A program made the translations under genes and the position numbers. The notes under the pieces are model-generated. The model did not search any database, was not told the DNA's origin, and saw nothing but the letters and a program-made list of their open reading frames with translations. This document shows, in pieces, positions 40,500 to 44,876 of a stretch of DNA of 64,000 nt; positions within the stretch are counted from its first letter, which is position 1; each line of letters begins with the position of its first letter. The DNA comes from Herbaspirillum rubrisubalbicans (GTDB taxonomy: Bacteria; Pseudomonadota; Gammaproteobacteria; Burkholderiales; Burkholderiaceae_D): positions 4,774,001 to 4,838,000 of the forward strand of contig NZ_CP024996.1 in assembly GCF_003719195.1 (NCBI RefSeq). The letters are read 5' to 3'.

Positions 40500-41332
40500 G
40501 CGCCACCTCCCAGACCCAGATCCTCGGCCAACGACTTGCCGGGATAGTGGAAAGGCACCGGGCCATCGGCCTGGGCATGGACAAATTGCTTCACATAGGG
40601 GTCGGTCGATTCACGCATTTCTTGCGGCGTACCCTGTGCCACGATCTTGCCGGCCGACAGGAAATACACATAGTCGGCAATGGCAAAGGATTCATTGACG
40701 TCGTGCGAGACCAGGATGGACGTCGAACCCAGGGCATCATTGAGACGCCGGATCAGGTTGGCGGTCACGCCCATGGAAATCGGATCGAGACCGGCAAACG
40801 GTTCGTCATACATGATCAGCGCCGGATCCAGGGCGATGGCCCGCGCCAACGCCACGCGCCGTGCCATGCCGCCGGAAATCTCGGCCGGCTTCAAGGCGGC
40901 CGCATTGCGCAGGCCCACGGCGTTCAACTTCATGAGCACCAGGTCGCGGATCAGCGTGTCATCCAGATCGGTATGTTCGCGCAGCGGAAAGGCTACGTTG
41001 TCGAACACCGTCATATCGGTAAAGAGCGCCCCGTTCTGGAACAACATGCCCATCTTGCGACGCAGCAGATACAGTTGCTTGGTCGCCAGCGACGGCACGT
41101 TTTCGCCATCCACTTCCACCCTGCCCTGCTGCGGCTGCAACTGCCCGCCGATCAGACGCAGGATGGTGGTCTTGCCCGACCCGGAACCGCCCATGACCGC
41201 CACCACCTTGCCGCGCGGGAAGTCCATATGCAGACCGGTCAGAATAGGCCGGTCGCCATAACGGAAATGCAGATCGCGGATTTCAACGATATTAGGCAAA
41301 GGGATTCTTTGTGTGCTTTGGAAAACCGACAT
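40496..41332 (-). CDS. mlaF: Mla ATP-binding protein MlaF
   Basis: About 278 residues. Walker A GGSGSGKTT, signature EISGGMARRVALARAI, Walker B PALIMYDEPFAGLDP, H-loop VSHDVNESF. I place the start at ATG 41332 (MSVFQSTQ); a TTG nearer the domain (PNIVEIRDLHF) is possible and an upstream codon at 41362 is not convincing. First gene of mlaFEDACB. Confidence 0.95.
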   Translation of the reverse strand: MSVFQSTQRIPLPNIVEIRDLHFRYGDRPILTGLHMDFPRGKVVAVMGGSGSGKTTILRLIGGQLQPQQGRVEVDGENVPSLATKQLYLLRRKMGMLFQNGALFTDMTVFDNVAFPLREHTDLDDTLIRDLVLMKLNAVGLRNAAALKPAEISGGMARRVALARAIALDPALIMYDEPFAGLDPISMGVTANLIRRLNDALGSTSILVSHDVNESFAIADYVYFLSAGKIVAQGTPQEMRESTDPYVKQFVHAQADGPVPFHYPGKSLAEDLGLGGGA

Positions 41333-41698
41333 TGTAGAGCAAATTTTACAAATCGCTTTCAAGAAGGCAATACACCGTGTAAATGGCCAACGCGGAAAAG
41401 CCCCGTTCTTAACAAGTTACCTACAACTTCACGACAGATGACAACTCTTGCCATCAACCAACTTGTTGACGGCTGGGTCAGTAAAATATTGCATCCCACC
41501 GTAAATTCCCATTACGTGGTATGTATGCAACGAAATAGTGCAATTTCGACAATGTGCGAGACGTGACGTATCGTTCATATAGTAGCAATGATGGCGCAAT
41601 GCCACAGCCTGCACCGAAGGCCGATGCTGCAACGCAAAGCTGTGGGTTGGGGCGCGCGGCTTGCTACAATGACGGTTTTGCTTTCGGAAGAATCTGTC
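41333..41698. other. Intergenic region between divergent mlaF and ychF
   Basis: 366 bases that must contain the promoters of both the mla series and ychF. I see no firm -35/-10 pair. An inverted repeat CGAAAT-N6-ATTTCG lies at 41531-41548, followed by AT-rich sequence; it could be an operator or hairpin. No gene of credible quality is present. Confidence 0.6.
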
Positions 41699-42790
41699 AT
41701 GAGCCTCAAATGCGGCATCGTGGGTCTGCCCAACGTCGGTAAGTCCACTCTTTTCAACGCGCTGACCAAGGCTGGCATCGCCGCCGAGAACTACCCGTTC
41801 TGCACCATCGAGCCCAATGTCGGCATCGTCGAAGTGCCCGATCCGCGCTTGAAGGCGCTGGCCGAAATCGTCAAGCCCGAGCGCATCCTGCCGGCCGCAG
41901 TCGAATTCGTCGACATCGCCGGCCTGGTGGCGGGCGCCTCCAAGGGTGAAGGCCTGGGCAACCAATTCCTCTCGCACATCCGCGAGACCGACGCCATCGT
42001 CAACGTGGTGCGCTGCTTCGAAGACCCCAACGTGATCCACGTCGCCGGCCGCGTAAGCCCGCTGGACGACATCGCCGTGATCCAGACCGAACTGGCCCTG
42101 GCCGACATGGGCACGGTCGAGAAAGCCATCCACCGCGAACAGAAGAAGGCCCGCTCCGGCGACAAGGATGCCGCCAAGCTGGTGGCCCTGCTGGAACGCA
42201 TCATGCCGGCGCTGGACGAAGCCAAGCCGGTACGCGCCCTGGGCCTGGATGCCGAAGAAATGCTGCTGATCAAGCCGCTGTGCCTGATCACCGCCAAGCC
42301 GGCCATGTACGTGGCCAACGTGTCCGATAGCGGCTTCACCAACAACCCGCTGCTGGACCAGTTGACCGCCTATGCTCAGGAACAGAACGCCCCCATCGTG
42401 GCCATCTGCGCGGCCATCGAAGCCGAGATCGCCGACCTGGACGACGCCGACAAGGCTGACTTCCTGGCCGACATGGGCATGGAAGAACCCGGCCTGGACC
42501 GCCTGATCCGCGCCGCCTTCAAGCTCTTGGGCCTGCAAACCTACTTCACCGCAGGCGTCAAGGAAGTGCGCGCCTGGACGATTCCGGTCGGCGCCACCGG
42601 CCCGCAGGCGGCTGGCGTGATCCACACCGACTTCGAACGCGGCTTCATCCGTGCGCAGACCATTGCCTTTGAAGACTTCATCGCCTTCAAGGGTGAGGCC
42701 GGGGCCAAGGAAGCGGGCAAGATGCGCGCGGAAGGCAAGGAGTATGTGGTCAAGGATGGGGATGTGATGAATTTCTTGTTCAATGTCTAA
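41699..42790 (+). CDS. ychF: Redox-regulated ATPase YchF (Obg family)
   Basis: 363 residues, the exact usual length. P-loop GLPNVGKST at residues 8-16, switch region [25 protein letters not shown], and the C-terminal TGS domain ([59 protein letters not shown]). Binds ribosomes and prefers ATP over GTP. Start ATG 41699 chosen since [12 protein letters not shown] is the family N-terminus; the frame runs 37 codons further upstream without meaning. Confidence 0.97.
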
Positions 42791-43068
42791 AACTGATCAT
42801 ACGAAATTTGTCTAGTAGGAATTCCGCGCCCCCGCGCCCGTGCGCGGAATTGCTTACCTGGCTGCGATTATTAAGGTGATCTAGCACAGGCAATTCTTGA
42901 GCAGTTCTTCAATTTCCGATCTTCGCGCTCCCATCAATGCGCTGCAGCATTCAAGGACGGCTACGCCAGAATACCGATCGCAGACTATCTCAAGATGCCA
43001 GCTTTTCGTATTACGCCATCTCCACTGAAGTCATGAAGGCTTACCAAGTCTGAGGAAAAGAGAAAAGC
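42791..43068. other. Spacer between ychF and the ATPase-TOPRIM module
   Basis: 278 bases. A 10-bp inverted repeat (AATTCCGCGC at 42820 with its complement at 42842-42851) may end ychF transcription but has no T run. The rest is AT-richer than ychF and probably carries the promoter of the following module. AGGAAAAG lies about 10 bases before the ATG at 43069. I see no gene. Confidence 0.6.
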
Positions 43069-44280
43069 ATGACACAGGCCCCTTTCATTGACCGCGTGGC
43101 TCTCCGAAACTATAAGAGCATCGGCTATTGTGATGTGCGTTTAAACCCGCTGACTTATCTCGTCGGACATAATGGCGCGGGCAAAAGCAATTTCATGGAT
43201 GCGCTCCATTTCGTGCGCGATGCGCTTTTCAACTCACTGGACAGTGCGCTCAATGAACGAGGCGGTATAAATGAGGTACGGCGCCGCAGTGGTGGCCATC
43301 CTACCCATTTTGCGATCCGGATTGAATTCGTTTTGCTTGGTGGTCAACGAGGGCACTATGGCTTCGTCATCGGTGCATTGAAAAACGGAGCCTACGAAGT
43401 CCAAAAAGAAGAGTGCGTTGTATCCGGTATTGGCAAAGGGCCTTTCTTTCGCATACAAAAAGGAAAGTTGCGTGATAGCAGCGAGCCCACTTTTCCGTCA
43501 GTCACAGCAGACAGGTTGGCATTAGTTGCGGCATCCGGCCTGACAGCTTTCCGCCCTGTATTCGATGCGCTAACAGCGATGGGTTTCTACAACCTAAATC
43601 CAAAGCTGATGCGTGAATTACAGAAACCGCAGGACGGTCGTCTGCTGCGGCCAGCCGGAGAAAATATCGTTAGCGTAATTGGACATCTGGAAAAGGTCGC
43701 ACCTGACCAGATCACGCTGATTCAGGAATATCTTCACTCAGTGGCACCCATGGTTCATGGCGTCGAGCGAGAGTCCATCGGTCCGATGGAAACACTTGAG
43801 TTTCGCCAGGAAATGGCTGGCTCCAAACATCCGTGGCGCTTCCTTGCACAAAATATGTCCGACGGCACACTACGCGCATTGGGTGTGCTTACGGCATTAC
43901 TACAAAGCAACGTAGATTATTCCCCAACTTTAATCGGCATCGAAGAACCTGAAACAGCGTTACATCCAGCAGCAAGTGGTGCGTTACGCGAGGCACTAGT
44001 ACGTGCCTCAAAAAACACACAAGTGCTGGTGACAAGCCATAGCCCGGATCTGCTTGACGATAGGAACATCGACGCCGACGCTGTACTGGCAGTGGTATCT
44101 GAAGCAGGAGAGACGAAAGTTGCACCGCTTGACGATGCCTCGCGACAAGTGATGCGGGACCATCTCTTCTCGGCTGGTGAACTGCTGCGCATGAATCAAC
44201 TTGCACCGGACCGAGCCAGCATTGAACATCAAGATAAAGGCAGCGCTGGAGACCTTTTCAGCGAGATCGACTCGTTATGA
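43069..44280 (+). CDS. AAA/ABC-type ATPase of a putative two-gene defence module
   Basis: 403 residues. A RecF/OLD-like ATPase of the AAA_21 kind: N-terminal FIDRVALRNYKSIGYCDVRLNPLTYLVGHNGAGKSN with Walker A at 33-40, ABC-type signature NMSDGTLR at 262-269, Walker B LIGIEEPETALHP at 288-300, and the H-loop VTSHSPDLLD at 321-330. No nuclease domain is fused to it. The stop overlaps the start of the DUF4276 gene by 4 bp, so the two are a translationally coupled pair. Such ATPase plus TOPRIM pairs act against phages in several known systems. Composition is more AT-rich than ychF and pxpA on either side. The defence role is inferred. Confidence 0.85.
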   Translation: MTQAPFIDRVALRNYKSIGYCDVRLNPLTYLVGHNGAGKSNFMDALHFVRDALFNSLDSALNERGGINEVRRRSGGHPTHFAIRIEFVLLGGQRGHYGFVIGALKNGAYEVQKEECVVSGIGKGPFFRIQKGKLRDSSEPTFPSVTADRLALVAASGLTAFRPVFDALTAMGFYNLNPKLMRELQKPQDGRLLRPAGENIVSVIGHLEKVAPDQITLIQEYLHSVAPMVHGVERESIGPMETLEFRQEMAGSKHPWRFLAQNMSDGTLRALGVLTALLQSNVDYSPTLIGIEEPETALHPAASGALREALVRASKNTQVLVTSHSPDLLDDRNIDADAVLAVVSEAGETKVAPLDDASRQVMRDHLFSAGELLRMNQLAPDRASIEHQDKGSAGDLFSEIDSL

Positions 44281-44876
44281 TTTCTGTAGCCAGCATTGTC
44301 GAAGGGGATGGTGAAGTGGCCGCTTTACCAGTGCTTTTGAGGCGCCTAAATGAATGGCGCCCTGGTACAGACTATGCGCGAATACTGCCGCCCATTCGAG
44401 TGCATAGAGACCGCTTCCTCAATCGTGACGACGAATTCCGAAAACAACTGCTACTAGCTGCCGCCAAGTGCGGCGATGGAGGTTGGATTTTAGTGGTCTT
44501 GGATGCTGATGACGACTGCCCAGCAAACCTGTCGCAGCAGGTATATCTACGCGCCATGAAACATGTACCCCATCGGCGCGTGTCGGTGGTGTTAGCCAAT
44601 CGCGAATACGAGGCCTGGTTCATTGCGTCGGCTCGGTCACTTGACGGACAACGAGGATTCCGTTGTCCAGATGAAAAATGCATCGATGCCGAAACACCCA
44701 GAGATGCCAAAGGCTGGCTACGTCGAAATATGGAAAGTGGCACCTACAGCGAAGTGCTTGATCAACCAGCATTCACGGCGCACTTCGATCTGCAACAAGC
44801 TTTCGACAATAGTCGTTCGTTCCGCAAACTATGCAAAGAGTGGCAAGTCAACATCGCAGATCAACATCCAGGCTGA
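44277..44876 (+). CDS. DUF4276 family protein, TOPRIM-like
   Basis: 199 residues. The start VASIVEGDGEVAALPVLLRRL (Glu9, Glu13) and the motif VVLDADDD (Asp76, Asp78) have the spacing of a TOPRIM metal site, as in OLD nucleases and DnaG. LANREYEAWFIASA at 106-119 is typical of DUF4276. It is encoded only together with the ATPase through a 4-bp overlap. A nuclease or nucleotide-processing activity is inferred from the acidic motif. Its stop lies 40 bp from the convergent LysR gene. Confidence 0.8.
   Translation: MISVASIVEGDGEVAALPVLLRRLNEWRPGTDYARILPPIRVHRDRFLNRDDEFRKQLLLAAAKCGDGGWILVVLDADDDCPANLSQQVYLRAMKHVPHRRVSVVLANREYEAWFIASARSLDGQRGFRCPDEKCIDAETPRDAKGWLRRNMESGTYSEVLDQPAFTAHFDLQQAFDNSRSFRKLCKEWQVNIADQHPG

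Follow-up and report, generated by a model that had tools for sequence, protein, structure and literature searches.

An ATPase-DUF4276 gene pair of the candidate system HEC-01, with a likely role in defence, in a variable chromosomal slot of Herbaspirillum rubrisubalbicans

We analysed a stretch of 64,000 nucleotides of the genome of Herbaspirillum rubrisubalbicans (contig NZ_CP024996.1, positions 4,774,001 to 4,838,000; hereafter the window), in a genome that consists of one contig of 5.62 Mb. The subject is a pair of adjacent genes encoding an ATPase and a DUF4276 protein, both assigned by reading of the open reading frames (ORFs), Pfam, and PADLOC:

43069..44280, + strand: HEC-01A, an ABC/SMC-head-like ATPase of 403 aa
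44277..44876, + strand: HEC-01B, a DUF4276 protein and probable TOPRIM-fold nuclease of 199 aa

The two ORFs have the letters ATGA in common, which corresponds to an overlap of 4 bp. They lie between ychF, recognised upstream by Pfam, and a downstream ORF on the opposite strand that reads, by eye, as a LysR-type gene. The guanine-cytosine (GC) content is 0.518 for the ATPase gene and 0.523 for the DUF4276 gene compared to 0.628 for ychF, 0.586 for the LysR-type gene, and 0.603 for the whole window; further AT-rich stretches occur close by, e.g., at 41250-41749 (GC 0.48). A preliminary description of this DNA had reported two genes overlapping by 4 bp between these flanks and AT-richer than both, and the coordinates, overlap, flanks, and composition all agree with it.

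The ATPase was assigned to Pfam AAA_21 (8.2e-27), and none of its seven Pfam matches is a nuclease family. The partner was assigned to DUF4276 (4.4e-9) with an additional weak match to RloB, and no HNH family was found among its Pfam matches. At E ≤ 1e-3, a protein search with the partner retrieved 3,220 homologues; the ATPase had at least 7,738, the closest organism-named one belonging to Herbaspirillum sp. DW155 (96%). The Pfam scores and the 3,220 partner homologues place the pair far beyond chance. In PADLOC, the ATPase matched HEC-01A (PDLC04178, 1e-184, residues 1-389 on 1-391 of 399) and the partner HEC-01B (PDLC04196, 3.6e-89, residues 1-195 on 1-194 of 197), and all 12 PADLOC families that match the partner at E ≤ 1 are HEC-01B. 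Going by these models, the pair is a member of the PADLOC-DB 2.0 candidate system HEC-01, as its models define it.

The original work on these candidates is reportedly that of Payne et al. HEC stands for Hma-embedded candidate (PMC12988326; PMC11411939). Excerpts of these papers describe antiviral activity for several HECs, HEC-06 among them (PMC12988326), and state that HEC-05 and HEC-06 function on their own (PMC11411939). A text search of 5.39 million open papers gave no match for DUF4276, and in the open bacterial literature HEC-01 was named in a single paper, as a list item. The earlier view that this family pair is poorly described needs the correction that the pair already has a name as a PADLOC candidate. 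HEC-01 is little studied though DUF4276 is present in 61 of 299 genomes sampled across the phylum.

The ATPase contains complete Walker A, signature, and Walker B motifs, as had been described, and the key residues of all three are invariant in 45 homologues:

43165..43188, + strand: Walker A, GHNGAGKS, residues 33-40; G38, K39, and S40 invariant
43855..43869, + strand: ABC signature-like MSDGT, residues 263-267; S264 to T267 invariant
43930..43953, + strand: Walker B, LIGIEEPE, residues 288-295; E292 to E295 invariant

The predicted fold of the ATPase resembles PtuA and the heads of SMC and Rad50 proteins, PtuA being the top Foldseek match (E 8.7e-16). Weaker PADLOC matches of the ATPase were obtained with the models of AriA (5.5e-27) and AbiLi (7.3e-23).

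In the DUF4276 partner, the preliminary description had recognised E9/E13 and D76/D78 in TOPRIM spacing. All four residues are invariant in 63 homologues, with identities down to 55%, and the same holds for a further acidic pair:

44301..44315, + strand: TOPRIM motif I, EGDGE (E9 and E13, both invariant)
44502..44510, + strand: TOPRIM DxD motif, DAD (D76 and D78, invariant)
44604..44612, + strand: ExE (E110 and E112, invariant), the proposed counterpart of T506/E508 of OLD

The structure model of the partner has a predicted local distance difference test (pLDDT) score of 92.8. Among its fold matches, OLD nucleases ranked first with their TOPRIM region, narrowly ahead of Argonaute MID. The best VIA-align match was OLD 6nk8, with residues 1-194 on 392-594; if the start of this alignment is ungapped, E9 and E13 coincide with E400 and E404 of OLD. 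The metal ligands of OLD are given as E400, E404, D455, D457, T506, and E508 (PMC6755086, in part). Judged by sequence order only, the acidic residues of the partner follow the order of OLD with equal steps between the two glutamates (4), the two aspartates (2), and the last pair (2), although the position of T506 is taken by E110. AriB and RNase M5 were outside the 50 VIA-align rows shown, which says nothing on their absence, and the DUF4276 profile had no match at E ≤ 1 among PDB sequences. One candidate relationship was discarded: the profile matched the AAA ATPase annotated beside GajB in the Streptomyces locus L137 over 19 columns at the VEGxxE motif, with an unusable probability of 0.2 percent.

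The predicted fold thus carries an acidic cluster, as expected of the TOPRIM metal site suggested earlier, and OLD TOPRIM is its best match, albeit narrowly. Together, the structure model and the conserved residues suggest that the DUF4276 partner is a probable two-metal TOPRIM nuclease. Alternatively, the protein might be TOPRIM-like in fold without being a nuclease, e.g., a sensor that binds nucleotides or nucleic acids, while an unlinked host enzyme serves as effector. Given six acidic residues (E9, E13, D76, D78, E110, and E112) that do not vary among 63 sequences and stand in the order of a two-metal site, we regard this as very unlikely.

Gene order was compared in the best 80 of 229 genome_contigs loci (L004-L083), in some of which the ATPase is cut by the contig end. 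In 78 loci, the DUF4276 gene is immediately preceded by an ATPase homologue, and the overlap of 4 bp recurs in 70. The two exceptions are L009, which starts at a contig edge, and L027, in which no ATPase frame was detectable. Of the eight loci with other spacing, five have a mechanically chosen start that precedes the matched one. Hence, the ATPase and the DUF4276 gene are one unit.

The tight coupling and the fixed gene order would also suit a selfish, toxin-antitoxin-like pair, in which the DUF4276 protein is a toxic nuclease and the ATPase its neutraliser, so that the genes are kept by addiction and defence is incidental. In PARIS, AriA is described as sequestering AriB until triggered (PMC12409363, in part). 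The Pfam description of AAA_21 as a putative AbiEii toxin points in the same direction. However, toxin-antitoxin pairs are usually common on plasmids, whereas only 3 of 72,556 plasmid records carry the pair, all from Streptomyces. Furthermore, the invariance of every catalytic motif of the ATPase suggests more than a passive antidote, and we consider such a pair quite improbable. A phage- or plasmid-borne module was also rejected: besides the 3 plasmid records, the search yielded 1 phage record, and 40 pattern matches in viral_contigs included no relative.

Across the genus, ychF was present in all 34 genomes but the pair in only 3; the 31 genomes without a match include two that are less than 90% complete. 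This rules out a fixed core gene beside ychF, the finding that in the preliminary description would have spoken against a defence role. We compared 19 ychF regions. Both ychF and the LysR-type gene were kept in 4; for the remaining 15, the stretch examined showed no LysR flank. The slot of G024 contains the same pair (protein identity 96% for the ATPase and 90% for the partner; DNA identity 88% and 81%). In G028, ~370 bp separate the flanks. In G025, the slot holds 2.6 kb encoding an Mrr_cat protein (4.8e-22) that matches the PADLOC candidate PDC-S02 (3.2e-156):

L120:5478-6515, - strand: Mrr_cat protein (PDC-S02), encoded between ychF and lysR in a relative; L119 retains a remnant of the segment

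The 1.1 kb slot of G008 matches the G025 segment at both ends (~91%) and lacks most of the Mrr_cat gene. Two frames had no Pfam family: the small ORF between the flanks of G028 and a transposase-like one in the slot of G025. A further genome, G023, carries the pair elsewhere, outside the ychF slot. Presence of the pair at ychF, for which a comparison of close strains had been proposed, is thus variable: across five genomes, the slot is occupied by one of two candidate defence cargoes or by a remnant, or is nearly empty.

To see which genes surround the pair elsewhere, PADLOC was run on two sets of 117 genes from the same loci, one drawn from 146 nearest genes and the other from 202 distal ones. 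The nearest-gene set excludes genes of more than 1500 aa and ends at ~49,000 residues, so that it includes nothing after L069; it comprises 48,639 residues vs. 35,398 in the control, a bias that favours near-set matches. As neighbour genes were taken as longest open frames, both sets, like the 484 control tails used below, contain some false genes, and the counts that follow are readings of PADLOC families, not proteins, with the PDC-S02 models in the distal control counted as one protein. At E ≤ 1e-60, a cut picked after the control had been seen, at least 12 of the 117 near genes matched PADLOC models compared to 3 named candidates among the 117 distal genes (Fisher two-sided p 0.03). The near matches include five related type III methylases (by clustering from L004, L021, L028, L030, and L050, and possibly not independent), two JetA, one JetC, and at least one each of type I restriction, type I methylase, type II methylase, DUF1156 methylase, and another HEC-01.

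In single loci, the pair lies inside or near defence genes. A complete Wadjet operon (JetA-B-C-D) in L012:7250-16485 harbours the pair between JetA and JetB, and in L022 the pair directly precedes JetA, with JetD further downstream. It follows type I restriction genes in L018 and L068. On a Streptomyces linear plasmid (L137:6751-13563), it precedes an annotated AAA ATPase and GajB (1.4e-176) by ~1.1 kb, with two small genes between. The window's own copy stands alone. As a separate observation, L004:2757-12679 contains an apparent operon of a ResIII type III restriction subunit, a type III methylase, the HEC-01 pair, and a UvrD-like helicase, the last of which recurs in L007 and L021.

Several observations weigh against a defence module. 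At E ≤ 1e-20, the comparison shifts to ~16 near vs. ~10 distal matches (p 0.30), which lowers our confidence; four of these distal matches are to the MADS ATPase model, and two are to the housekeeping-like SspA (5.6e-58) and DndA (8.9e-55), which just miss 1e-60. At E ≤ 1e-60, ~103 of the 117 nearest genes are without a PADLOC match, and tRNA synthetases, aconitase, and YicC are encoded next to the pair, too. In addition, the mobile-element records (plasmid, phage, and viral) are nearly empty of the pair. The enrichment of defence neighbours therefore hinges on the chosen cut-off, and the single loci are firmer than the statistics. As to whether relatives sit in defence islands, the check proposed earlier, some loci have the pair inside Wadjet or beside restriction genes.

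On balance, a defence role of the pair appears likely from gene content and context, and with moderate confidence we favour a two-gene HEC-01 anti-phage module that would act as a split OLD nuclease with a logic closest to PARIS. The mechanism that we infer is as follows. The ATPase would dimerise or multimerise via its SMC/Rad50/PtuA-like head and serve as sensor and scaffold. The DUF4276 protein, as a two-metal TOPRIM nuclease, would be held or activated by the ATPase. Its switch could be a change brought about by the phage, perhaps at DNA ends or at replication forks. The activated protein would then cut nucleic acid, either DNA or tRNA, and phage growth might be stopped through this cleavage or through cell dormancy. 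In most relatives examined, a QxDLF tail of the ATPase may additionally attach the complex to the sliding clamp of the host, whereas this tail is reduced to xGDLF in the clade of the window protein:

44239..44277, + strand: C-terminal low-confidence tail of the ATPase, residues 391-403, with DLF at 395-397 (pLDDT down to 65, then 32; F397 invariant in 45 homologues)

For bacterial clamp binding, the consensus QL[SD]LF at the C-terminus has been described (PMC9690074) and revised to Q-aliphatic-x-[LM][FL] (PMC13254535), and Pol II carries the clamp motif QLGLF (PMC3716654; all three sources in part). The window ATPase ends in SAGDLF, without Q, and fails the motif Q-aliphatic-x-[LM]-[FL]. We scored the last 25 residues of 197 ATPase homologues (77 loci and 120 proteins, mutually not independent). 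Q..[LM]F was found in 139 of 197 compared to 1 of 484 neighbour ORFs, LF in 194, and the strict consensus in 91 compared to 3 of 484; QADLF was the commonest motif (53 of 197). Among the 120 best ATPase homologues, 73 have Q.[DES][LMI]F at the end. The C-terminal Q..LF of most HEC-01A relatives examined is thus like that of the clamp binders UmuC (QLNLF), RecB (QVEMEF), SocB, and Pol II, but fewer than half of the relatives meet the strict consensus and the window tail does not.

In a quick tree that included the tail columns and left 84 of 190 inner branches open, 51 Q-less rows, among them the window protein (P0121), form one group (Shimodaira-Hasegawa-like approximate likelihood ratio test, SH-aLRT, 99). 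Four more rows scored Q-less lie elsewhere in the tree; one of them, L074, does have the Q further in and was scored motif-less because its frame extends beyond the 25 residues. The three deepest rows end in QLDLF (L081), QTDLF (L074), and PADLF without Q (L070), i.e., the motif is present in two of three. The tail probably goes back to the ancestor of the subfamily and became weaker in the clade with the window copy. Because this clade kept DLF but lost the Q, docking of the QxDLF tail on the clamp is put forward as a hypothesis at the level of the subfamily. Alternatively, the tail might bind the DUF4276 partner or the ATPase dimer. A Q..[LM]F tail was absent from all 25 candidate ATPase frames examined next to other DUF4276 genes (24 of 32 loci). 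Many other DUF4276-linked ATPases (L142-L171) have a different C-terminus of the type WLEEYSLGELW.

The clamp-like tail in 139 of 197 homologues and the SMC/Rad50-like head also fit an accessory of replication or DNA repair, in which the ATPase rides the sliding clamp, the DUF4276 protein trims or nicks at stalled forks, and the patchy distribution reflects niche use. Such a role has precedents, as a clamp motif serves E. coli RecB in DNA repair (PMC13254535, in part) and the archaeal OLD-family ATPase Cran1 reportedly acts in the cell cycle (PMC12796447), and would agree with the scarcity of the pair in plasmid, phage, and viral records. It is less compatible with its lack of a match in 31 of 34 genus genomes, with a slot shared with a restriction-type nuclease, and with loci inside Wadjet or beside restriction genes, and we judge it unlikely. 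A further reading is conceivable but doubtful: the proteobacterial HEC-01 subfamily could be an ATPase-TOPRIM complex with an immune or a fork-guarding role that is anchored on the clamp by QxDLF and inspects or cuts fork DNA or senses takeover of the clamp by a phage. Binding of the tail to DnaN, if real, would place an OLD-like complex in direct contact with the replisome; no such case was among the matches listed in the open literature, which leaves out most subscription journals and bioRxiv.

Immediately upstream of the pair lies a leader of restricted distribution:

42791..43068, + strand: leader between ychF and the ATPase gene; within 171 loci compared (some overlapping), found only in the window's genome and in G024, 80.7% identical

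The leader contained no sigma-70-like match, and a promoter scan gave fewer matches than in shuffles. It was also rejected as a recognisable gene remnant, its relatives among the compared loci being confined to the same two genomes. Elsewhere in the genome, there is a second, divergent HEC-01-type pair (G000:C1:1769414-1769932, locus L140; DUF4276 3e-10, AAA_21 2.5e-31) without QxDLF. The PADLOC labels of its subfamily (PDLC04143 and PDLC04144) look swapped, as the DUF4276 protein matches a HEC-01A model (5.5e-88) and the ATPase a HEC-01B model (4.7e-222).

For the favoured reading of an anti-phage module, the comparison provides the HEC-01 candidate with a concrete predicted chemistry, that of a two-metal TOPRIM nuclease. 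The close relatives constitute a natural experiment at one chromosomal slot, and the QxDLF tail offers a testable docking motif.

Among known systems, PARIS resembles the pair in having separate genes for an ABC ATPase and a TOPRIM protein (in the pair a probable one), and the AriA model matches the ATPase weakly. The PADLOC library includes an AriAB fusion model and presumably a separate AriB model, but the families matching the partner are all HEC-01B and none is AriB. In PARIS, AriA is an ATPase sensor that sequesters AriB, a TOPRIM tRNase released by a phage protein; the Septu ATPase PtuA, in turn, is partnered by the HNH nuclease PtuB (both PMC12409363, in part). The likeness to Septu and retron PtuA lies in the top fold match of the ATPase, whereas its partner in the window is DUF4276, not HNH. 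With AbiL (AbiLi and AbiLii), the pair shares the match of the ATPase to the AbiLi model, but no AbiLii is among the 12 families matching the partner, a comparison in which the library's holding of an AbiLii model was not checked. Membership in PARIS or AbiL was set aside, as the partner's matching families are all HEC-01B. OLD/GajA resembles the pair in its ATPase and the probable TOPRIM chemistry of the partner, the order of the putative acidic ligands, and the best fold match of the partner; OLD proteins of Classes 1-3 are described as single polypeptides (PMC10568477, in part), whereas the window and 78 of 80 loci have two ORFs. A candidate ATPase-TOPRIM defence module, as proposed earlier, stands as the best reading, with the correction that the pair belongs to neither OLD nor PARIS, although it would work in a similar way to both. 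It is HEC-01 whose A and B models both proteins match near full length and in order, with no separating feature found, and within it the window pair belongs to the PDLC04178/PDLC04196 subfamily, in which 139 of the 197 ATPases examined carry the Q..[LM]F tail.
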